Below, one piece after another: positions 5,908 through 21,002 of a stretch of 64,000 nt of DNA. Every line of letters starts with the position of its first letter. Positions within the stretch are counted from its first letter, which is position 1. Below the pieces are notes generated by a model. The model was given only the letters and a program-made list of their open reading frames with translations, did not search any database and was not told the origin of the DNA. The DNA lies in contig JAUSNO010000020.1 in NCBI GenBank assembly GCA_030645915.1, forward strand, positions 44,301-108,300, given 5' to 3'. This DNA is from Undibacterium sp. Its GTDB lineage: Bacteria > Pseudomonadota > Gammaproteobacteria > Burkholderiales > Burkholderiaceae_D. Made by a program: the position numbers and the translations under genes.

Positions 5908-6849
5908 TCACAAATCGTAGGTATCTTTACCACCCTGCATCACCTGATCAATCAGCTTACGGTTCAGTGTCGGTGTAAGCAATTCGATGAAAGTGTAAAT
6001 ATAACTGCGCAAATAAGCGCCCTGCCTGACGGCAACACGAGACACATTCATCCCGAACAAATGTCCTACTGAAATGGATCTTAAATTTAAATCCCGATCT
6101 GCGTCGAAAGCCATTCCGGCAATAATACCGACACCCATACCAAGTTCAACATAGGTTTTTATGACATCTGCATCAATTGCTTCCAACAATACATCTGGCT
6201 TCAAATGGCGAATTTCAAACGCATGATCAATCTTGCTACGTCCGGCAAAAGCAGCATCGTATGTAATCAACGGGTAATGGGCAATTTCTTCCAAAGTAAT
6301 CGATTTGGACTTTAATAAAGGATGATCTACCGGCACCACCACCACATGCTCCCACTGATAGCATGGGAGAGAAACCAACCCATCCATTCCTGCAATAGCC
6401 TCGGTGGCAATTGCCAGATCTGCCTGATCGCGCATGACCATTTCAGCAATTTGTTTTGGATTTCCTTGCAGCAACGACAATCTTACCTTGGGATATTTTT
6501 GCATGAATGCCTGGACTACTTTCGGCAAAATATATCTGGCCTGGGTGTGAGTCGTAGCAATCGTAAAACTTCCGCTATCCTGTGCTGCGAATTCTTTACC
6601 GATGCGTTTTAAACCATCGATTTCCTGCATGATAAGTTCTACCGACTTCAAGACGGCGCGCCCTGGTTCGGTCAATCCCCGGATGCGTTTGCCGTGTCGG
6701 GCAAAAATATCGACACCCAATTCTTCTTCAAATTCGATAATCGCCTTGGAAACGCCAGGCTGTGAGGTGAATAGCGCCTTGGCGGCCTCTGTCAGGTTGA
6801 AATTCTGCCTGACTGCTTCGCGAACAAAGCGCAATTGGTGTAGATTCAT
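5908..6849 (-). CDS. cysB: LysR-type regulator, CysB family
   Basis: MNLHQLRFVREAVRQNFNLTEAAKALFTSQPGVSKAIIEFEEELGVDIFARHGKRI, CysB-like N-terminus. Confidence 0.85.
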   Translation of the reverse strand: MNLHQLRFVREAVRQNFNLTEAAKALFTSQPGVSKAIIEFEEELGVDIFARHGKRIRGLTEPGRAVLKSVELIMQEIDGLKRIGKEFAAQDSGSFTIATTHTQARYILPKVVQAFMQKYPKVRLSLLQGNPKQIAEMVMRDQADLAIATEAIAGMDGLVSLPCYQWEHVVVVPVDHPLLKSKSITLEEIAHYPLITYDAAFAGRSKIDHAFEIRHLKPDVLLEAIDADVIKTYVELGMGVGIIAGMAFDADRDLNLRSISVGHLFGMNVSRVAVRQGAYLRSYIYTFIELLTPTLNRKLIDQVMQGGKDTYDL

Positions 6850-7052
6850 GAATGAGCTCTAAAAGTGCTTAAATGTGGCATCAAAAAACTGATCGTCTTA
6901 TGCTTTTCTGCGGATTATCCGGTGCATGCTTATGCTTTTATGTCCCCACAGAAGGCATTTGATATGCATTCAGTAGTATATAGAGCCTCAGAGAAGATTT
7001 CCACGCTTACAATGGCGTTTGCCTTGAACACCCTTCGATTTGCCTATTAAAT

Positions 7053-9305
7053 ATGCGTATACCGACCATTTTTTTACTTTCCCTCGTTTTTCTCCTTTCC
7101 GGAACTGCCGCAGCCGAAAGATTGGCGGTCAATGCTGAAGATACCAATCCACCAAAAATTTGTTTGGTACTTTCGGGAGGAGGAGCCCGTGGTTTCGCAC
7201 ATATTGGTGTATTAAAAGAACTTGAAGCAATGCACGTCCCTATTCATTGCATCGCGGGAACCAGTATGGGGGCGGTTGTGGGTGGACTCTACGCAGCAGG
7301 GCTATCTGCCAGCGAAATTGAACTACGTCTCAATAAATTGCAGTTAAACGATATCGCGCTTGATCGCGTAGAACGACGCCTATTGCCGCAAGCATTGAGA
7401 GAAGAAGACAATCGATATCCATTTGGTGCAACTCTTGGCCTCAGTGCAAGTGGAGTGCGCTTGCCAACCGGTGTAGTGCAGGCAACACAATTTTTAGAAT
7501 TGCTGCACAACTGGACCGCGCATTTGAAATCCGACATTAGCTTCGATAAATTGCCCATTCCATTTCGTGCAATTGCCACCAATCTTGAAAACGGCCAAAT
7601 GGTTGTTTTTGACAGAGGACCGTTACATGTCGCTATCCGTGCCAGTATGGCCGCCCCCGGCGTATTCGCCCCCGTCGAAATTGATGGCCGATTGTTAACC
7701 GATGGCGGTCTGGTGCGTAATCTGCCGGTTGATATTGCTCGCGATATGGGTGCGGACGTCATCATTGCGGTCAATATCGGAACGCCATTGCTGCCACGCG
7801 ATCAGCTCAGGTCTTTACTCAACGTGAGTCAGCAAATGGTCAATATTCTGACAGAACAAAATGTTGAACTGCAAAAGGCCGCATTACGCCCGAAAGACAT
7901 TCTGATTGAACCCGATCTGGGCAACATCAGTTTTATGGATTTCGAACGATCTGCAGAAGCGTCTGCAGTCGGTGAAAATGCCGCCATCGCGATGCGATAT
8001 CAACTGCAGACCTTAAGCTTATCTCCCGAGCGGTATGCAGCAGATCAGAAACGACAACCGCATACAGAACTACCTAGCATCAAAATCAGTTTTGTCGAGA
8101 TTAACTCTAACGGCATCATTCCAAAAAAAGAAATCAGTCGTCAGGTAGCGATCGACAATGGAAGCCAATACAGTGCGGAAGAAATCAATCGCAAGCTGGC
8201 CTTACTCAATATTTCTCGGGAATATGATGGAATAAGCCATGAGTTAATTCAACGCGATGGTGCATACGGTGTTCTTATCAATGCAAATGAACGCAAATGG
8301 GGGCCGCATTTTCTAAGATTCGGCTTAGCGCTATCAAGCGGATTTGAAGGCGCCGGGGGATATCGTTTGCAAGTCGGTCACCGCTATCCCTGGCTAACAG
8401 AGGGCGGACTGGAATGGCGCAACGATATCGAGTTTGGCAACAATTTGGGACTACATACAGAATTGCGCCAGCCACTGTTCGAACAAGACGGCATCTTTGC
8501 GGCGCCTTACGCAGACATAAAAAAAAGTACGCGTAATATTTATTTTGGAGACACCCGCATAGCTGAATATTCATTCAGGCGCGACAAAATTGGCTTGGAC
8601 CTAGGGATTCCGCTCGGTGACAGAAGCACAATGGGAGAGATCCGGATAGGATTAGGCGCCAATCAATATCGCGTTCGTCCCAAATTGGGAGGCATACTAA
8701 TCAGCAGTACAGAAGGAGAAATAAACACGGTTGAATTGCCACGAGCCGCGCTTCAACAAGTTGGCATAAAATCCTCCATCATTATTGACCAACTGAGTGA
8801 TGCAACATTTCCTAGATATGGTTACGAATTTGATAGCGAGCTTTTTTTCGGGATGAATAAATCAGGCGATAATTATAAGGAATTTGCGATCAATGGAACC
8901 TGGGCAGAGAGTATCAACAGCCACAGCATCAACCTCAAATTAGGAGGTGCCGGACTATTTCAATCCAGTAAGGAAGTGCGTGGAATTGGTCCCACATTAG
9001 GAGGTTTCCAACAATTATCTGCCTATCAACCGGATCAGTTTACAGGTAACTACATGCTTTATGGCAGTGCCACTTATTTGTATCGCGCACTTAAGTTTGA
9101 TCTGGCCGGCCAAAGTCTGTTTGTAGGTAGTTCGCTGGAAATCGGCAACGTCTGGAATAAAGGTCATGATATTTCATTTGGATCAACGCGCAAAAGCGCC
9201 AGTTTGTTTACCGGCTTCAATAGTTTTATGGGGCCTATCCATCTTGGCTTTGCCCTGGGACCATCTGGAGCGAGGAACATATTTTTCCAGCTAGGCCGAC
9301 AATAA
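7053..9305 (+). CDS. patatin-like phospholipase with C-terminal POTRA/Omp85-type barrel (type Vd secretion, PlpD-like)
   Basis: GGGARGFAHIGVL, GTSMGAVVGG, DGG motif; signal peptide; C-terminal barrel ending FFQLGRQ. Confidence 0.9.
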   Translation: MRIPTIFLLSLVFLLSGTAAAERLAVNAEDTNPPKICLVLSGGGARGFAHIGVLKELEAMHVPIHCIAGTSMGAVVGGLYAAGLSASEIELRLNKLQLNDIALDRVERRLLPQALREEDNRYPFGATLGLSASGVRLPTGVVQATQFLELLHNWTAHLKSDISFDKLPIPFRAIATNLENGQMVVFDRGPLHVAIRASMAAPGVFAPVEIDGRLLTDGGLVRNLPVDIARDMGADVIIAVNIGTPLLPRDQLRSLLNVSQQMVNILTEQNVELQKAALRPKDILIEPDLGNISFMDFERSAEASAVGENAAIAMRYQLQTLSLSPERYAADQKRQPHTELPSIKISFVEINSNGIIPKKEISRQVAIDNGSQYSAEEINRKLALLNISREYDGISHELIQRDGAYGVLINANERKWGPHFLRFGLALSSGFEGAGGYRLQVGHRYPWLTEGGLEWRNDIEFGNNLGLHTELRQPLFEQDGIFAAPYADIKKSTRNIYFGDTRIAEYSFRRDKIGLDLGIPLGDRSTMGEIRIGLGANQYRVRPKLGGILISSTEGEINTVELPRAALQQVGIKSSIIIDQLSDATFPRYGYEFDSELFFGMNKSGDNYKEFAINGTWAESINSHSINLKLGGAGLFQSSKEVRGIGPTLGGFQQLSAYQPDQFTGNYMLYGSATYLYRALKFDLAGQSLFVGSSLEIGNVWNKGHDISFGSTRKSASLFTGFNSFMGPIHLGFALGPSGARNIFFQLGRQ

Positions 9306-9403
9306 AATTGGCGTCTTCCATAGACGGAAAATTCAAGCGGTGAGTGGGACTCTTACTTCAATTCCCACCCCGGGATGACGAAACGACACAAATAGCCTGC
9401 GCA

Positions 9404-10393
9404 TTAATTGTGGTGATACTCCACCACGCTTTGGTCGATTGCGCCAAAAATAGATTTCCCATTTTTATCCAGCATTTCAATCCTGATGCTGTCGCCAAAT
9501 TTCATGAAGGGCGTAGTTGGCGCGCCATCTGCGATCATTTCCAGTGCACGTTTCTCTGCGATACAGCTAAAACCTTTTTTTGCATCCTTGTTAGAAACGG
9601 TGCCTGATCCAATGATAGTGCCGGCGCGTGCATGACGTGTCTTGCACAAATGCGTGATCAGTTGCGGGAAAGAAAAAACCATATCCACACCTGCATTTGG
9701 CTGGCCGACCAAAACATTGTTCCAGGTCGAGCGCAAGGGCAAATGTACTTTGCCGTCTTTCCAGGCGTCGCCAAGTTCATCCGGTGTAACAGCAACGGGT
9801 GAAAAACTGGACGCCGGTTTCGACTGAAAAAATCCAAATCCTTTCGCCAGTTCTGCCGGAATCAGATTGCGCAATGAGACATCATTCACCAGCATCAATA
9901 ATCGAATATATTGCGCAGCGTGCTGCACCTTCACGCCCATAGGCACGTCGCCTGTGACCACCGCCACTTCGCTCTCAAAATCGATGCCCCACTCTTCTGA
10001 CTCCAGCGCTACATCATCCATAGGGCCAATGAAATCATCGCTGCCGCCCTGGTACATAAGCGGGTCATGCCAGAAGCTGTCCGGCATATCCGCGTTGCGC
10101 GCCTTGCGCACCAACTCTACATGATTGACATAGGATGAAGCGTCAGCCCATTGAAACGCACGCGGCAACGGCGCCATGCATTTTTTCGGATCAAACTCAA
10201 AACTGCTGGAAGCTTTACCCGCATTCAGTTGTTCATACAATGAAATGAGTTGGGGCGAAATAAAATTCCAGTCATCTAAAGCGGATTGCAGCGTCGGGGC
10301 AATCCAGTCGGCAATCTGCGCTGTTTTCAAATCACTTGAAACGACAAGTAGTTGGCCGTCGCGAGATCCATCGTTGAGTGTGGCTAGTTTCAT
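9404..10393 (-). CDS. fumarylacetoacetate hydrolase family protein
   Basis: DFESEVAVVTGDV, GTIIGSGTVSN, GDSIRIEM motifs. Confidence 0.9.
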   Translation of the reverse strand: MKLATLNDGSRDGQLLVVSSDLKTAQIADWIAPTLQSALDDWNFISPQLISLYEQLNAGKASSSFEFDPKKCMAPLPRAFQWADASSYVNHVELVRKARNADMPDSFWHDPLMYQGGSDDFIGPMDDVALESEEWGIDFESEVAVVTGDVPMGVKVQHAAQYIRLLMLVNDVSLRNLIPAELAKGFGFFQSKPASSFSPVAVTPDELGDAWKDGKVHLPLRSTWNNVLVGQPNAGVDMVFSFPQLITHLCKTRHARAGTIIGSGTVSNKDAKKGFSCIAEKRALEMIADGAPTTPFMKFGDSIRIEMLDKNGKSIFGAIDQSVVEYHHN

Positions 10394-13056: not shown

Positions 13057-13524
13057 TTACAGGAACCTGTCGAGTATCTTGCGACTATGCTTATCAATCC
13101 CATGCATATCGCGGATGAGAAAGTGTATACCGTGATTATCTGCAATGAGTAACGAAGCTGCGCCGATACGGCGGATGTCTTCTTCGCCCTTCAGCACAAA
13201 ATCTGTCTCGCCTCTGTCGGTTTTGACATGCCAGGTGCACGGTGTAGCAAAACTGGTCACGCTAACGATACGTGCAATTTCCGGCATAAATTCGCGCCCT
13301 GCCAACTCCTGCGCAATCAAACTGCGGATGGCATCGGGCAGATCGGCCAGCCTGTCTATCCAAGCGACTTCCTGACCGTCCTGCAACACCAGTGAGATGC
13401 CTTCGTCCGGTGATTGGATAGGAAATGCCCGCACCGGACTGACATTTTCATGCACCTGGCCATCCACCGTAGTCAATACCAAATGATCAAACGCATTACG
13501 CGATAGTTGAAAATTGATTTGCAT
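13057..13524 (-). CDS. DUF1854 protein, cyanophycin-metabolism associated
   Basis: 155 aa; 2-bp gap to the ABC transporter gene and next to cphA genes, the arrangement known for this family. Confidence 0.75.
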   Translation of the reverse strand: MQINFQLSRNAFDHLVLTTVDGQVHENVSPVRAFPIQSPDEGISLVLQDGQEVAWIDRLADLPDAIRSLIAQELAGREFMPEIARIVSVTSFATPCTWHVKTDRGETDFVLKGEEDIRRIGAASLLIADNHGIHFLIRDMHGIDKHSRKILDRFL

Positions 13525-13526
13525 AT

Positions 13527-15782
13527 TTATTCGCCCCCTACTTTGGCATTGCGCGCTTGTGCTTCATACAGGCGGAAGTAAGCGCCTTCGCGCGCCATCA
13601 ATTCATCATGGCTGCCCACTTCGACTACCTGCCCTCTATCGAGCACGACCAATCTATCCGCCTTATGCAAGGTGGAAAGGCGATGTGCGATGGCGATCGT
13701 GGTGCGGCCCTTGACCAAATTATCCAGCGCTTTTTGTATCTCTTTTTCAGTCTCTGAATCGACCGACGAGGTCGCCTCATCCATGATCAGGATGCGCGGA
13801 TCGATCAGCAAGGCGCGCGCGATCGAGATGCGCTGACGTTCACCGCCAGACAAACCCTGACCCCGCTCGCCAACCATGGAGTCATAACCCTGCGGCAAGC
13901 GCAAGATGAATTCATGCGCATGCGCAGCCCTTGCAGAAGCGATGATTTCTTCACGCGTGGCATGGGGTTTTCCGTAAGCGATATTGTCGGCAATAGTGCC
14001 GAAGAACAAGAACGGTTCCTGCAGCACCAAGCCGATATTGCTACGGTAATCTGAAATGCCAAAGGACCGGATATCGACACCATCGAGCAAAATGGCACCT
14101 TCGGACACATCGTAAAAACGGCAAATCAAATTGACCAGCGTGCTCTTGCCTGAACCGCTGTGACCGACCAGTCCTATCATTTCGCCCGGCTTGATATTGA
14201 GATTAATGCCGCGGTTGACGGCGCGGTTGCCGTAACGGAAACCAACTTCGCGCAAGTCAATCTGACCTTTGATTTCTTTCGGCTTCACCGGATGAGAGGG
14301 TTCAGGAACACTCGACACATGGTCAAGAATATCAAAAATACGCTTGGCCGCCGACGCCGATTTCTGTGTTACTGAAACAATGCGGCTCATGGAATCGATG
14401 CGGCCATAAAAATTACCAATGAAAGCGACTGCCGCCACCAGCGAACCCACGGTAATTTCATCGTGCGATACTTGCCAGATGCCGAACGCCCACACCACCA
14501 GAATACCCAAATCCGTCAAAAACGATACCGTTGGCGAGAACAATGACCATACTTTATTGAGCTTATCGTTGACGGCCAGATTGTGTTTATTCGCTTCGCG
14601 GAAGCGGGTCGCTTCGCGTTTCTCCTGAGCAAAGGCCTTGACGACGCGGATGCCGGGAATGGTGTCAGCCAAGACATTGGTGACTTCGCCCCAGACCCTA
14701 TCGATTTTCTCAAAGCCGGTGCGCAACTTGTCACGCACCAGATGAATCATCCAGGCAATAATGGGTAATGGCAGCAAGGTGACCAGGGCGAGCTTGGTAT
14801 TAATTTGCATCAAGGCGACGACCGTCATCAGGAACATTAATACGTCGGTCGCAAAATCAAGCAGATGCAAGGACAGATAGACACAAATACGGTCACTCTC
14901 GCTACCAACGCGCGACATCAGATCGCCGGTACGTTTGCCGCCAAAATATTCCAGCGATAGCTTTAATAAATGCTCATAGGTAGTGGTGCGTAAATCAGCA
15001 CCGATGCGCTCGGATACCAGCGCGAGGATGTAGGTTTTACCCCAGCTAAGCAACCACGCCACGATTGCCGACCCTAACAAGCCGCCGATATACAAGGTCA
15101 CTAACTGCGGATCGACATGTTGACCATTTTGGTAGGGAATCAGCACCTCATCCGTGAGCGGCTTGGTCAGGTATCGCGGAATCATGTGCGCTGCAGTACC
15201 GAGCAACATCAAGGTAAAACCTGCCGCCAATTGCCAGCGATACGGCTGCGCAAAACGCCACAGTCTGAACAAGGTCCAGGTTGACGGCGGTGTATAAATC
15301 ACTTTGGTGCAGACCGGGCATTCGTCCTGATCAGGTTCCAGAATTGCCTTGCAACTTGGGCAAATATTTTGTTCGGTATGTTCGACGGGCAAACCGGTGA
15401 GATGACTTTCGAGTTGTTCCTTGAACTGATCGAGCAATCGTATGGCAAGAAGATTTTGTCCCAGAGTGAAGCGCCAGCTCGCTAAACGCCCTTGCTCATT
15501 CAACAATTCCAAATGGCCAACGCCAGCGTGATCATGGTGGCGCAACTGCAAACCTATTGCATAAGCCCAATCGCGCCACACAGTTTCACCCGGGGCCTTT
15601 GCCAGCAAGCGTCTGTCGGTAACGACAATGACACCTTTGACAAAATGCAGGCGCGCATCAAGGTCAACCTCTACCGCGCTTAAAACGTTTTCTCCGCTGG
15701 CGAGCTGCATGCCCACGTCGGAACGCCAAATCTCAGGGAGCGTCACCAGTGATTGATTGGCAATTAATTGTTTAGTTATCAT
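13527..15782 (-). CDS. ABC transporter (fused permease/ATPase) with N-terminal domain and Cys4 zinc-ribbon, cyanophycin-associated
   Basis: 751 aa; GHSGSGKST Walker A, LSGGERQR signature, MDEATSS; N-terminal NICPSCKAILEPDQDECPVCTK ribbon. Confidence 0.9.
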   Translation of the reverse strand: MITKQLIANQSLVTLPEIWRSDVGMQLASGENVLSAVEVDLDARLHFVKGVIVVTDRRLLAKAPGETVWRDWAYAIGLQLRHHDHAGVGHLELLNEQGRLASWRFTLGQNLLAIRLLDQFKEQLESHLTGLPVEHTEQNICPSCKAILEPDQDECPVCTKVIYTPPSTWTLFRLWRFAQPYRWQLAAGFTLMLLGTAAHMIPRYLTKPLTDEVLIPYQNGQHVDPQLVTLYIGGLLGSAIVAWLLSWGKTYILALVSERIGADLRTTTYEHLLKLSLEYFGGKRTGDLMSRVGSESDRICVYLSLHLLDFATDVLMFLMTVVALMQINTKLALVTLLPLPIIAWMIHLVRDKLRTGFEKIDRVWGEVTNVLADTIPGIRVVKAFAQEKREATRFREANKHNLAVNDKLNKVWSLFSPTVSFLTDLGILVVWAFGIWQVSHDEITVGSLVAAVAFIGNFYGRIDSMSRIVSVTQKSASAAKRIFDILDHVSSVPEPSHPVKPKEIKGQIDLREVGFRYGNRAVNRGINLNIKPGEMIGLVGHSGSGKSTLVNLICRFYDVSEGAILLDGVDIRSFGISDYRSNIGLVLQEPFLFFGTIADNIAYGKPHATREEIIASARAAHAHEFILRLPQGYDSMVGERGQGLSGGERQRISIARALLIDPRILIMDEATSSVDSETEKEIQKALDNLVKGRTTIAIAHRLSTLHKADRLVVLDRGQVVEVGSHDELMAREGAYFRLYEAQARNAKVGGE

Positions 15783-16116: not shown

Positions 16117-18297
16117 ATGACAACGAAGAAGAAAAACATAGAATTTCTCCGTGTAACTCATCTACGCGGACCGAACATCTGGACATATCGCCCTGTAATT
16201 GAAGTGTGCCTCGATATCGGCGAATTAGAAAATTGTCCATCCAATACTTTGCCTGGCCTGTATGAACGCTTGATCGCCGCATTACCTGGCTTGATCGAAC
16301 ATCGCTGCGGGGTCGGCGAACGTGGCGGTTTTCTTGAAAGACTACGTGAAGGCACCTGGGCCGGACATATTCTGGAACACGTTGTTCTTGAATTGCAGAA
16401 CATGGCCGGCATGCGTACCGGTTTTGGCCAAACCCGCTCCACGGGCGAAGCTGGCGTGTACAAAATGGCATTTCGCACCAGACAAGAACAAGTTGGCCGC
16501 GCTGCACTCAACGCCGCCCGCGACTTGCTGATGGCGCTGATTGAAGATCAAGCCTATGACCTCGATGGCAAATTGGCTGAATTACGCGAACTGGTCGATG
16601 ATCTTTGTCTCGGACCCAGCACAGCGCATATCGTTGAAGCAGCGACTGAGCGCCAGATTCCTTCCATACGCTTGACCGATGGCAATCTGGTTCAGCTTGG
16701 TCACGCATCAGCACAAAGACGCATCTGGACCGCAGAGACTGACAGCACCAGCGCAATAGCGGAAAGCATCGCCAGCGACAAAGACCTCACCAAAACTCTA
16801 CTGCAATCGTGCGGCGTACCTGTGCCTGAAGGCAGCCTGGTCAAGAGCGCGGAAGAAGCCTGGGAAGAAGCACAGGACATCGGTGTGCCGGTGGTCATCA
16901 AGCCTTATGACGGCAATCACGGCCGCGGTGTATCACTCAATTTGATGACCGAAGCAGATGTGGTTGCCGCCTACCATCTGGCCGCACGCAAAGGTGATAG
17001 TAAAAGCGTCATCGTTGAACGCTATATCACTGGCAATGAACATCGCCTGCTGGTAGTCGGCAATAAAGTAGTCGCGGCGGCAAAAGGCGAAGCATTATGG
17101 ATTGTTGGCAATGGCAAATCCAATATCATCGAATTGGTCGATAATCAAATCAATACCGATCCGCGTCGAGGCACGGGTGAAGATTCGCCCCTGAACGTGA
17201 TTGCTCCGCAGCACGGCGCAGAACATATTCTGGAGCTGGAACGCCAGGGCTTAACTGCTTATTCGATTCCGCTCGATGGTCAAAAAGTGTTGATACAACC
17301 GAATGGCAATGTCGCCTTTGATGTCACCGATGAAGTCCATCCAGAAGTAGCCAGAGCCGCAGCGCTGGCAGCCCGTATCGTTGGTCTGGATATTGCCGGA
17401 ATCGATCTGGTGGCAGACGATATTTCACGTCCGCTGGAAGAGCAACGTGGCGCCATTATCGAAGTCAATGCCAGCCCAGGCCTATTGGCGCACTTAAAAC
17501 CGGCAGAAGGTACACCGCGTCCAGTCGGTACCGCCATCATCGCCAACCTGTTTGCACCTGACGAAAGTGGCCGCGTCCCCATCGTTGGCGTTGCAGGTAC
17601 ACGCGGTACCAGTCTGATCGCACGCCTGATCGCATGCATACTCAGCGTCAGCGGCAAGCATACCGGCGTCGCTTGCGCACAAGGGTTATTTCTGGATCAG
17701 AGACACGTTGTCAAAACCGATTGCTCAAACTGGGATGCAGGCCAGCGTCTATTACTTAACCGCTCGGTGCAAGCCGCTGTTTTTGAAACCAACGCACGCA
17801 TGATACTCAAGGACGGTCTGGCCTATGACAAATGCACCGTTGGCGTAGTGACCGATATGGACGGGCATGCCGATCTGGCTGAGTTTTATATTACTGAAGC
17901 AGATCAGATGTTCAAGGTGATGCGAACACAAATCGATGTCGTGTTGCCACACGGTGCGGCGGTACTCAATGCAGGCAATCCGCAAGTGGTTGAACTGGCC
18001 GAACTATGCGACGGCAAGGTCATTTTTTACGGTCTGGATGCAAATGCTGAAGCAATCGCCAATCATCGTAGCAAGGGCGAACGTGTCGTGTTCTTGCGCG
18101 ACAACAGCATTGTCCTCGCTAGCGGCAAAGATGAAACAGCTTTACTCCCCTTGTCCTCGCTTAAACCGATCAAAGCAGATCAGCCAGAAACGGTGATGGC
18201 GGCAGTGGCCGCTGCGTGGGCACTGGACATCTCACCCGATTTGATAGGTGCAGGGCTCAGATCATTTGATTCCACACCAAAGAAAACAAGTTACTAA
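16117..18297 (+). CDS. cyanophycin synthetase-like protein, truncated/degenerate Mur-ligase domain (CphA'-type)
   Basis: 726 aa; RVTHLRGPNIWTYRPVIE N-domain, ATP-grasp motifs (VVIKPYDGNHGRGV, IIEVNASPGLLAHL); P-loop replaced by GTRGTSLIARL; C-terminal ligase domain absent. Confidence 0.9.
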   Translation: MTTKKKNIEFLRVTHLRGPNIWTYRPVIEVCLDIGELENCPSNTLPGLYERLIAALPGLIEHRCGVGERGGFLERLREGTWAGHILEHVVLELQNMAGMRTGFGQTRSTGEAGVYKMAFRTRQEQVGRAALNAARDLLMALIEDQAYDLDGKLAELRELVDDLCLGPSTAHIVEAATERQIPSIRLTDGNLVQLGHASAQRRIWTAETDSTSAIAESIASDKDLTKTLLQSCGVPVPEGSLVKSAEEAWEEAQDIGVPVVIKPYDGNHGRGVSLNLMTEADVVAAYHLAARKGDSKSVIVERYITGNEHRLLVVGNKVVAAAKGEALWIVGNGKSNIIELVDNQINTDPRRGTGEDSPLNVIAPQHGAEHILELERQGLTAYSIPLDGQKVLIQPNGNVAFDVTDEVHPEVARAAALAARIVGLDIAGIDLVADDISRPLEEQRGAIIEVNASPGLLAHLKPAEGTPRPVGTAIIANLFAPDESGRVPIVGVAGTRGTSLIARLIACILSVSGKHTGVACAQGLFLDQRHVVKTDCSNWDAGQRLLLNRSVQAAVFETNARMILKDGLAYDKCTVGVVTDMDGHADLAEFYITEADQMFKVMRTQIDVVLPHGAAVLNAGNPQVVELAELCDGKVIFYGLDANAEAIANHRSKGERVVFLRDNSIVLASGKDETALLPLSSLKPIKADQPETVMAAVAAAWALDISPDLIGAGLRSFDSTPKKTSY

Positions 18298-18422
18298 CCG
18301 ACTTAAATAGACGCAAATCAGTGCGTGCCATATCGATGATATCGCGCACGACAAATAACTCAGGCAGCGTCGATTGACGAACAATTTTTTGGCGTAACCG
18401 CCAGCAGATAGGATAAAGGTTT

Positions 18423-21002
18423 ATGGAAGTATCACGTATACGGGCACTGCGCGGCCCCAACCTCTGGAGTCACCATACCGCTGTTGAAGCGCTTGTTACC
18501 TGCACTCCTGCAGAATGTTCTATTGCCGACCTGCCTGATTTTGAAGTCCGGCTGCGCGCGCGTTTTCCAGAAATTGGCCCCCTGCAATCGACCGGCCACA
18601 ATGAAGCCATCGCGATGGCGCACGTGTTTGAACTGGCCACACTTGGCCTGCAAGCGCAAGCGGGTTGCCCTGTTACCTTCAGCCGTGCCACACAGACTTT
18701 AGAGCCTGGTGTCTTTCAAGTCGTCGCAGAATATTCTGAAGAAGCCGTGGGTCGGCTCGCTGTTGAATTGGCAGAAGCCTTATGCGCTGCCGCCTTAAAC
18801 GATACGCCCTTCGATCTGCCAGGCGCCCTCACCCAGCTGCGCGATCTGGATGAAGACGTCCGGCTTGGCCCATCGACAGGCTCTATCGTTGATGCGGCCA
18901 TCGCCCGTAATATTCCGTTCCGCCGCCTCACCAATGGCAGCCTCGTTCTATTTGGCTGGGGTAGTCGCCAGCGCAAAATACAAGCGGCCGAAATGGATGG
19001 CACCAGCGCCATCGCAGAGGCCATCGCGCAGGATAAAGAACTCACCAAAAAACTGCTCGATGCCGCTGGCGTTCCCGTGCCTTTGGGTCGTACCGCCATC
19101 GACATGGATGATGCATGGGCAATCGCCTGCGAAATCGGCTTGCCGGTGGTGGTCAAGCCAAAAGATGGCAACCAAGGTAAAGGTGTCACGGTCAACGTCA
19201 CGACACGCGAACAACTCAATGCAGGCTATGTAGCCGCAGCTGAATTCAGGGATGACATTCTGGTAGAGCGCTACCTGCCCGGCAATGATTTCCGTTTACT
19301 GGTGGTTGGCAATAAGCTGGTTGCAGCCGCGCGACGCGATCCTCCGCAAGTGGTTGGCGATGGCCAACATTCTGTGCGCGAACTGGTTGATCAGGTGAAT
19401 AAAGATCCACGCCGCGGCACTGGCCACGCTACCTCGCTGACCAAAATCCGTTTTGACGATATCGCTTTGGCCAGTTTAGCCAAGCAGGGCTATCAGGCTG
19501 ATTCAGTGCCGCCAAAGGGCAAGCGCGTCATCCTGCGCAATAACGCCAACCTCTCTACAGGCGGATCTGCCACCGACGTCACTGACGACGTGCATCCGGA
19601 AGTCGCCGCCAGCGCGGTCGCGGCTGCGCAAATGATAGGCCTGGATATTTGCGGCGTCGATCTGGTTTGCGACAGCGTATTGAAGCCAATCGAAGAACTC
19701 AACGGCGGTATCGTTGAGGTCAACGCGGCACCAGGTTTGCGCATGCATTTATCCCCGTCGTTTGGCAAAGGCAGGCCAGTTGGCGAAGCCATCGTTTCAG
19801 CCATGTTTGCCGATGGCGATGATGGTCGCATTCCTATTGTTGCGGTCACTGGCACCAACGGAAAAACGACTACGGTCCGGTTGATCGCGCACCTGCTGAC
19901 AGCCAGCGGCCTGCGCACCGGCATGACCAATACGGATGGTGTGTATATCGAAGGTCGCCGTATTGATAGCGGCGACTGCAGCGGCCCACGCAGCGCCCGT
20001 AATGTTTTGCTTCACCCAGATGTCGATGCTGCGGTATTCGAAACAGCGCGCGGTGGCGTATTGCGCGAAGGCCTGGCTTTCGACCGCTGCCAGGTGGCGG
20101 TTATTACCAATATCGGCACTGGTGATCATCTCGGCTTAAATTACATTACGACAGTAGAAGATCTCGCCGTGCTCAAGCGCGTCATCGTGCAAAACGTCGC
20201 CGATAACGGCGTCGCTGTCTTGAATGCAGCCGACCCTATCATCGCGGGCATGGCCAATAATTGCACAGGCACGGTGACCTTTTTCGCAGCTGACAGCCAA
20301 CTCCCTAATATGGCAACACATCGCGCCCAAGGGCGCCGCGTGGTGTACGTGGATGGCGACTCGCTGGTTGCTGCCGAAGGCAAAGCCATCAACAAAATCG
20401 CACTGTCTGAAATACCGATCACGCGCAACGGCGCAATTGGCTTTCAGGTCGAAAATGTCATGGCATCCGTTGCTGCGGCTTGGGGCGTAGGAATAAGCTG
20501 GGACGCGATACGCCTGGGCCTCAAAACCTTTGCGAATGAAAGCGACAATGCGCCAGGTCGTTTCAACGTCTTCAATTATCGCGGTGCCACGCTCATCGCA
20601 GATTACGGCCACAATCCGGATGCGATTTCTGCCTTGGTGCAAGCGGTTGAAAGCATGCCTGCCAAACGCCGCTCGGTGGTCATCAGCGGCGCAGGCGACA
20701 GACGCGATCAGGATATCCGCCAGCAAACCGAGATCCTCGGCAATGCCTTTGATGAAGTTGTTCTGTACCAGGATCAATGTCAACGCGGCCGTGCCGATGG
20801 TGAAGTCGTTGCGTTGTTAAGAGCTGGCCTGACGAATGCGACACGCACTACTTCCATCAAGGAAATCAATGGCGAATTCATCGCTATCGATACAGCCCTG
20901 GCGAGTTTATCGGAGGGCGATTTATGCCTGATACTGATCGATCAGGTAGAAGAAGCATTGGCACATATCGCCAAACGCATCGCGGAATCTACGTCAGACT
21001 AA
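18423..21002 (+). CDS. cphA: cyanophycin synthetase
   Basis: 859 aa; RALRGPNLWSH, VVVKPKDGNQGKGV, VTGTNGKTTTVRL, YGHNPDAI. Confidence 0.95.
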   Translation: MEVSRIRALRGPNLWSHHTAVEALVTCTPAECSIADLPDFEVRLRARFPEIGPLQSTGHNEAIAMAHVFELATLGLQAQAGCPVTFSRATQTLEPGVFQVVAEYSEEAVGRLAVELAEALCAAALNDTPFDLPGALTQLRDLDEDVRLGPSTGSIVDAAIARNIPFRRLTNGSLVLFGWGSRQRKIQAAEMDGTSAIAEAIAQDKELTKKLLDAAGVPVPLGRTAIDMDDAWAIACEIGLPVVVKPKDGNQGKGVTVNVTTREQLNAGYVAAAEFRDDILVERYLPGNDFRLLVVGNKLVAAARRDPPQVVGDGQHSVRELVDQVNKDPRRGTGHATSLTKIRFDDIALASLAKQGYQADSVPPKGKRVILRNNANLSTGGSATDVTDDVHPEVAASAVAAAQMIGLDICGVDLVCDSVLKPIEELNGGIVEVNAAPGLRMHLSPSFGKGRPVGEAIVSAMFADGDDGRIPIVAVTGTNGKTTTVRLIAHLLTASGLRTGMTNTDGVYIEGRRIDSGDCSGPRSARNVLLHPDVDAAVFETARGGVLREGLAFDRCQVAVITNIGTGDHLGLNYITTVEDLAVLKRVIVQNVADNGVAVLNAADPIIAGMANNCTGTVTFFAADSQLPNMATHRAQGRRVVYVDGDSLVAAEGKAINKIALSEIPITRNGAIGFQVENVMASVAAAWGVGISWDAIRLGLKTFANESDNAPGRFNVFNYRGATLIADYGHNPDAISALVQAVESMPAKRRSVVISGAGDRRDQDIRQQTEILGNAFDEVVLYQDQCQRGRADGEVVALLRAGLTNATRTTSIKEINGEFIAIDTALASLSEGDLCLILIDQVEEALAHIAKRIAESTSD

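Follow-up and report, generated by a model that had tools for sequence, protein, structure and literature searches.

What function underlies two cyanophycin synthetase genes that lie side by side in a bacterium, when the first of them encodes a truncated protein with a ruined Mur-ligase half? The question is posed by a window (the whole stretch of 64,000 nucleotides that was analyzed) from Undibacterium sp., whose 4.17 Mb genome has Undibacterium and other Oxalobacteraceae as its close relatives. Hereinafter, the upstream protein is CphA' and the downstream one CphA, and general residue numbers are those of the solved SuCphA1. The gene pair comprises the following:

16117-18297, forward strand: cphA', an ORF of 726 aa coding for a truncated cyanophycin synthetase paralogue with an N domain, an ATP-grasp G domain and a Mur core without the lid
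18298-18422, forward strand: the cphA'-cphA gap of 125 bp, without a terminator-like site
18423-21002, forward strand: cphA, coding for a full-length cyanophycin synthetase of 859 aa with intact Mur-ligase and aspartate-binding residues and a lost N-domain site

Both ORFs are real, as the first-pass annotation had proposed, and the terminator-free gap is consistent with their co-transcription; across the 151 tandem pairs considered below the gap averages 63 nt (range -6 to 279). CphA' matches the profile NF010623 over positions 1-721 of 871 with 1026.7 bits, and both proteins pass the cut-off of this model. The equivalog model TIGR02068 is passed by CphA only, with 965.6 bits, as against 721 bits for CphA', which falls below the cut-off of 850. 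The neighbor had been described as a full CphA; this holds for its length and its Mur-ligase domain, but its N-domain metallopeptidase site is destroyed and the histidine at position 267 has become Q251.

The Mur-ligase half is where the truncation is most apparent:

17590-18297, forward strand: degenerate Mur-ligase core of CphA', with no GKT, no R561, no D585/H586 and no lid domain

The changes reported at first pass in comparison with the adjacent CphA are all borne out. The P-loop VTGTNGKTTTVRL has become VAGTRGTSLIARL, whereby K499 is replaced by T498 and the GKT is lost; ETARGGVLREGL has become ETNARMILKDGL, whereby R561 is replaced by A560 and the ETARGG motif is lost; GDHLG has become DGHADL, with D585/H586 replaced by A585/D586; and the C-terminal lid is missing, with R731, D745 and H748 all falling in the truncation. 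Accordingly, CphA' has neither the P-loop, R561 and D585/H586 that define the Mur-ligase site of CphA1 nor the lid. The core is nevertheless still predicted to fold, with pLDDT mostly above 80. Six upstream copies from other pairs keep the P-loop, DH and lid residues yet are without R561, and the presence of the lid changes at least three times on the tree of upstream copies; to judge from these sequences, the Mur half of the upstream copies decayed stepwise.

The ATP-grasp domain had been described as intact in CphA', which is true of one part of its active site and not of another:

16780-17487, forward strand: ATP-grasp domain of CphA', with K222, K262, H268, R310, D430, E449 and N451 kept, R323 replaced by G324, R458 replaced by L457, and the large loop shorter by 5 aa near 17308
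19173-19175, forward strand: Q251 of CphA in place of H267, giving DGNQGKG instead of DGNHGRG

CphA' keeps the DGNHGRGV motif and the residues for ATP, magnesium and the polymer end (K220, K261, H267, R309, D431, E450 and N452 in SuCphA1), but its aspartate pocket is gone. In TeCphA1, the incoming aspartate is held by N394 and R323, which contact its beta-carboxylate, and by R458, which contacts its alpha-carboxylate, with S396 adjacent (PMC9427784). At these positions CphA' has G324 and L457, together with a deletion of 5 aa (STGGx) in the large loop that contains S396; N398 aligns with N394. The loss of R458 can be seen in the very motif on which the claim of intactness had rested, IVEVNAAPGLRMHL having become IIEVNASPGLLAHL. 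CphA retains the aspartate pocket along with the Mur-ligase site and lid of CphA1.

The N domain shows the reverse distribution:

16300-16392, forward strand: predicted N-domain zinc endopeptidase site of CphA', formed by H62, C64, F72, R75, H84, E87, H88 and E92, with the motif Cx19HxxEH
18582-18647, forward strand: ruined N-domain site of CphA, with C59 replaced by S56, H83 by L71, H57 by L54 and E87 by G75, the F67-R70 loop deleted, and H67 and E70 remaining

The residues of CphA' correspond in order to H57, C59, F67, R70, H79, E82, H83 and E87 of SuCphA1, and its motif is complete (C64-x19-H84-x2-E87-H88), matching the primer-independent subset of CphA1 enzymes. In CphA the four motif positions read S56, H67, E70 and L71, so that it lacks the zinc site. 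The Pfam model for the N domain scores 132.7 bits in CphA' versus 41.6 in CphA, and in the predicted structure of CphA' the active-site helix lies at the expected place (H82-96). In SuCphA1, Cx19HxxEH forms the site of a zinc endopeptidase, which cleaves cyanophycin into primers of about four units; TmCphA1, without the motif, is active but primer-dependent, and was made primer-independent in trans by SuCphA1 whose G and M domains had been inactivated, or by the SuCphA1 N domain alone (PMC9262961). The motif is lacking in CphA2, and not all genuine CphA1s have the site. Moreover, SuCphA1 E82Q and TmCphA1, both without a functional site, still produce cyanophycin in E. coli; hence, a separate primer-maker would be helpful but not strictly needed.

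To establish how far this partition extends, we collected loci by one scan of genome contigs and three family searches (200, 369 and 399 genomes), classing the copies by gene order rather than by motif. Twelve apparent pairs, each made up of an all-in-one CphA and a separate Mur-ligase-only gene, were left out of the counts. Among the 151 tandem pairs, the N-domain site (C59, H79, E82 and H83 along with H57, F67, R70 and E87) is complete in all 150 readable upstream copies and in none of the 151 downstream ones, while the quartet is complete in 29 of 29 singletons, i.e., single-copy enzymes from other lineages. Conversely, R561 is kept in 0/151 upstream copies versus 145/145 readable downstream copies and K499 in 25/151 versus 146/146, and virtually every readable downstream copy retains the Mur sites (K499, R561, D585, H586 and lid D745/H748). 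The aspartate pocket follows suit, with R323 kept in no upstream and 151 downstream copies, and S396 in none and 150, respectively. K220, K261, R309, D431, E450 and N452 are each kept in at least 149 of the 151 upstream copies; position 267 is His in 145/151 upstream and Gln in 147/151 downstream copies. A CphA'-type copy standing alone was encountered among the collected loci only where it lies less than 1 kb from a contig end, and of the lone CphA-type copies, one belongs to a gene split into two ORFs and the others start at contig edges. Reciprocal site loss in linked copies with no orphans, which we propose as the mark of a split enzyme, was thus found in 151 pairs.

Two further arrangements surfaced in this collection. 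In addition to the usual pair, one genome (G056) carries two convergent full-length CphA-like genes (L149:3070-5679, forward strand, and 6817-9447, reverse strand) with DANQGKG and a broken N-site, which might make a different polymer or represent a duplicated primer-dependent enzyme. At many single-copy loci, the gene directly downstream of an all-in-one CphA codes for a separate Mur-ligase-only protein (about 580 aa) with intact GKT, ARGG, DH and lid motifs (L184:5803-7539, L185, L187, L188, L224, L225, L228, L229, L269, L271, L272 and L276).

The first-pass annotation had called for a phylogeny of both copies, and this shows one ancient tandem duplication. In a tree built on the N and G domains after removal of every trait column, the 36 upstream copies form one clade (SH-aLRT 98) and the 36 downstream copies another (100), with the singletons outside both. 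The 151 pairs are therefore descendants of one duplication and not 151 independent events. A single CphA encoded at L273/L277 has all N, G and M sites intact together with Gln267, and its position in the tree is next to the split. This gene (L277:9446-11782, forward strand, on the same contig as L273) comes from a genome of another class with 8% contamination, and the contig ends inside it; with that limit, the enzyme may resemble the pre-split ancestor. No further pre-split forms were found in 48 genomes of the same class as G729.

CphA' is under strong purifying selection and is not decaying as a whole. Its dN/dS is about 0.05 overall and 0.03-0.06 per domain against the two nearest relatives, with the Mur core evolving fastest (mostly 0.04-0.12, reaching 0.12 in more distant pairs), many of the underlying dS values being near saturation. 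Given this constraint and the conservation in 151 pairs, the pattern of sites is not a product of chance. The predicted single-chain structure of CphA' folds well throughout (mean pLDDT 82.3) and is closer to CphA1 (TM 0.76-0.81) than to CphA2 (0.60-0.67), as is its sequence (E 7e-146 versus 1e-53).

Taken together, we consider it probable that the pair constitutes a split cyanophycin synthetase: the subunit CphA', which also has a second, altered ligase site, would generate the primers, and CphA would act as the polymerase. An all-in-one CphA1 would have been duplicated once in tandem, anciently, giving rise to a two-gene enzyme. The downstream CphA would add Asp and Arg to the elongating chain and, having lost the zinc site of its N domain, should be primer-dependent. 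The upstream CphA' would have given up the addition of Arg by its Mur ligase as well as the pocket for free Asp while keeping the zinc site, with which it could cut nascent cyanophycin to pieces of about (beta-Asp-Arg)4 for CphA to extend; trimming of some chains might thereby create more growing ends. We infer that CphA' binds zinc and cleaves the polymer, that it supplies primers to CphA and that the two proteins physically associate. Three roles had been offered for CphA' at first pass, a partner subunit, a dipeptide re-polymerizer or a primer-making enzyme, and the primer-making partner is the best supported of these, given that all readable pairs have the N-site in CphA' alone and that there is a precedent for priming in trans (PMC9262961).

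The ATP-grasp domain of CphA' would have a part in this scheme too. It may well retain ATP-Mg binding and activation of the polymer C-terminus while being unable to take free Asp, and would probably work with another acceptor (a dipeptide or some other amine) or as a holder of the polymer end. The strong conservation of its ATP/Mg residues suggests that the ligase activity of CphA' may be as important as the peptidase. At the same time, in L218, L219 and L220, three genomes from a single family, the ATP-grasp phosphate loop of CphA' is deleted or ruined while the zinc site is complete, making the latter the part that CphA' never gives up.

A stronger form of the proposal, which we hold only tentatively and deem on balance unlikely, is an obligate two-protein synthetase: neither CphA nor CphA' would make polymer efficiently alone, CphA' providing the primer cleavage as well as a second ATP-activated ligation, for which the acceptor is new, CphA adding Asp and Arg, and the ABC exporter and DUF1854 protein of the locus (see below) handling the product, all of which would be the standard betaproteobacterial form.

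Among the alternatives to the split synthetase, the one that fares best, albeit as an improbable reading, is an obligate hetero-enzyme in which each ATP-grasp site is incomplete (CphA' in its Asp pocket, CphA in H267) and only the mixed oligomer is active. It draws on the loss of H267 to Gln in nearly all downstream copies and of the Asp pocket in all upstream ones, on the inactivation of the SuCphA1 G domain and the lowered activity of TeCphA1 upon H267A mutation, and on the lack of reported cyanophycin from the R. eutropha genes. Further, His267 is present in the downstream copy of two of the three genomes with a wrecked CphA' ATP-grasp loop (L219 and L220). However, the third (L218) has Gln beside its loop-deleted CphA', and Gln also occurs in the single-copy L273 with all other sites intact; Gln267 is thus probably tolerated, and GshF-type ATP-grasp enzymes have Tyr or Phe at this position. 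The idea that H267Q is lethal to the ATP-grasp site of CphA is weakened accordingly.

Ranking next, and likewise improbable, is a CphA2-like role, in which the N-site would be secondary and the ATP-grasp domain of CphA' would re-polymerize beta-Asp-Arg dipeptides onto the polymer or attach a different amine to it. The resemblance to CphA2 raised at first pass lies in the loss of the Mur P-loop and lid in both (PMC9427784); the ATP/Mg residues are retained, and the loss of the free-Asp contacts (R323, R458 and the large loop) would open the acceptor pocket. Yet CphA' strictly keeps the Cx19HxxEH motif that CphA2 lacks and is nearer to CphA1 in sequence and fold, which together rule it out as a CphA2 orthologue. 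Moreover, the alpha-carboxylate that the lost R458 contacts would be present in a dipeptide as well, and the three genomes with a ruined CphA' ATP-grasp site keep the pair all the same. Dipeptide ligation is possible as a side activity of CphA'.

The remaining functional alternative bears on polymer breakdown and brings in the genes upstream of the pair:

13057-13524, reverse strand: DUF1854 protein, "cyanophycin metabolism-associated" (NF052234, 239.5 bits)
13527-15782, reverse strand: divergently transcribed ABC exporter, "cyanophycin metabolism-associated ABC transporter" (NF052233, 1393.5 bits)

These names are NCBIfam labels. The divergent ABC exporter and DUF1854 protein are invariant at the tandem loci, being present at 61 of the 61 pairs with at least 4.5 kb of upstream sequence, and apart from L273 none of 28 singletons has them. 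The module might function in export of a product or in regulation.

Under this alternative, which we view as doubtful and place just behind the CphA2-like role, the missing cyanophycinase would be CphA', with an N domain that serves mainly to mobilize the polymer in place of the S51 cyanophycinase that betaproteobacteria lack. A recognizable cyanophycinase is present in only 2.8% of the cphA1-bearing betaproteobacterial genomes (PMC10206079), the N domain is by nature an endo-cyanophycinase, and the module includes an exporter-type ABC transporter. Against this, the known cleavage by the N domain is slow and yields tetramers rather than dipeptides, the adjacency and order of the genes are those expected for co-expression with the synthase, and the host genome itself has one S51-family protein above the cut-off of the cyanophycinase model (G000, contig C9:25438-26148, reverse strand; 143.5 versus 126.6 bits), in which it is unlike most betaproteobacteria. 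An Asparaginase_2 (IaaA-type) gene was not found in this genome.

Finally, it is very improbable that CphA' is a relic, whether decaying or purely structural: its Mur half is degenerate, truncated and the fastest-evolving part, but the low dN/dS, that of the Mur core included, the invariant N-site, the near-invariant ATP/Mg residues and the fact that it is never lost from the pair all speak against it, and a pseudogene or frameshift is ruled out by the open frame, the low dN/dS and a gap to cphA too small to hold the lost C-terminal domain.

The split synthetase that we favor can be set against the characterized enzymes. SuCphA1 (PMC9262961) resembles CphA' in the Cx19HxxEH site with its surrounding residues and CphA in its G and M sites except for H267Q; it has all three sites in one polypeptide, whereas here they are divided over two adjacent genes. 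TmCphA1 is like CphA in keeping the ligase domains without the N-site, but has His at 267 and none of the four motif residues, while CphA has Gln and still shows the equivalents of H79 and E82. The cyanobacterial CphA2 (7ta5, 8fxh) shares with CphA' the loss of the Mur P-loop and lid and the retention of the ATP-grasp domain; it differs in lacking the N-site motif that is complete in CphA', and CphA', with its changed acceptor pocket, is much closer to CphA1.

Two neighboring cphA genes, as seen here, are also known from R. eutropha H16, Ca. Accumulibacter Group 1 and Sideroxydans, and very probably represent the pair described here. In betaproteobacteria, cphA genes in tandem go back to Fuser and Steinbuchel 2007, as cited in PMC10687191, and CphA and CphA' of R. 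eutropha H16 to Adames et al. 2013, as cited in PMC8560796. The Ca. Accumulibacter Group 1 cluster has an ABC transporter and no cphB, its tandem genes being counted as two copies and reported to be evenly expressed (PMC10687191), and those of Sideroxydans have been labeled CphA1/CphA2 (PMC5178258). In the Actinomycetota, Tetrasphaera has a long and a short form of cphA in tandem (PMC10687191). In the literature searched, which omits most subscription papers, we found no published account of the reciprocal partition of active sites. The CphA' of R. eutropha reportedly lacks much of a "J-loop", and this would agree with the deletion seen here in the large loop of CphA'. According to a review, cyanophycin was not detectable in either host with the homologues from R. 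eutropha H16; the CphA-type protein may therefore be weak, need a partner or make something else.

In one survey (PMC10206079), 903 of the 1614 complete genomes that carry cphA1 belonged to betaproteobacteria. If their synthetase is split, this could help explain the absence of cyanophycin from the R. eutropha genes, and CphA' would become an added candidate for the missing endo-cyanophycinase. The pair would also be nature's counterpart to the laboratory mixing in which the N domain of one protein primed another synthetase, and would make natural trans-priming of a polymer synthase open to experimental test.
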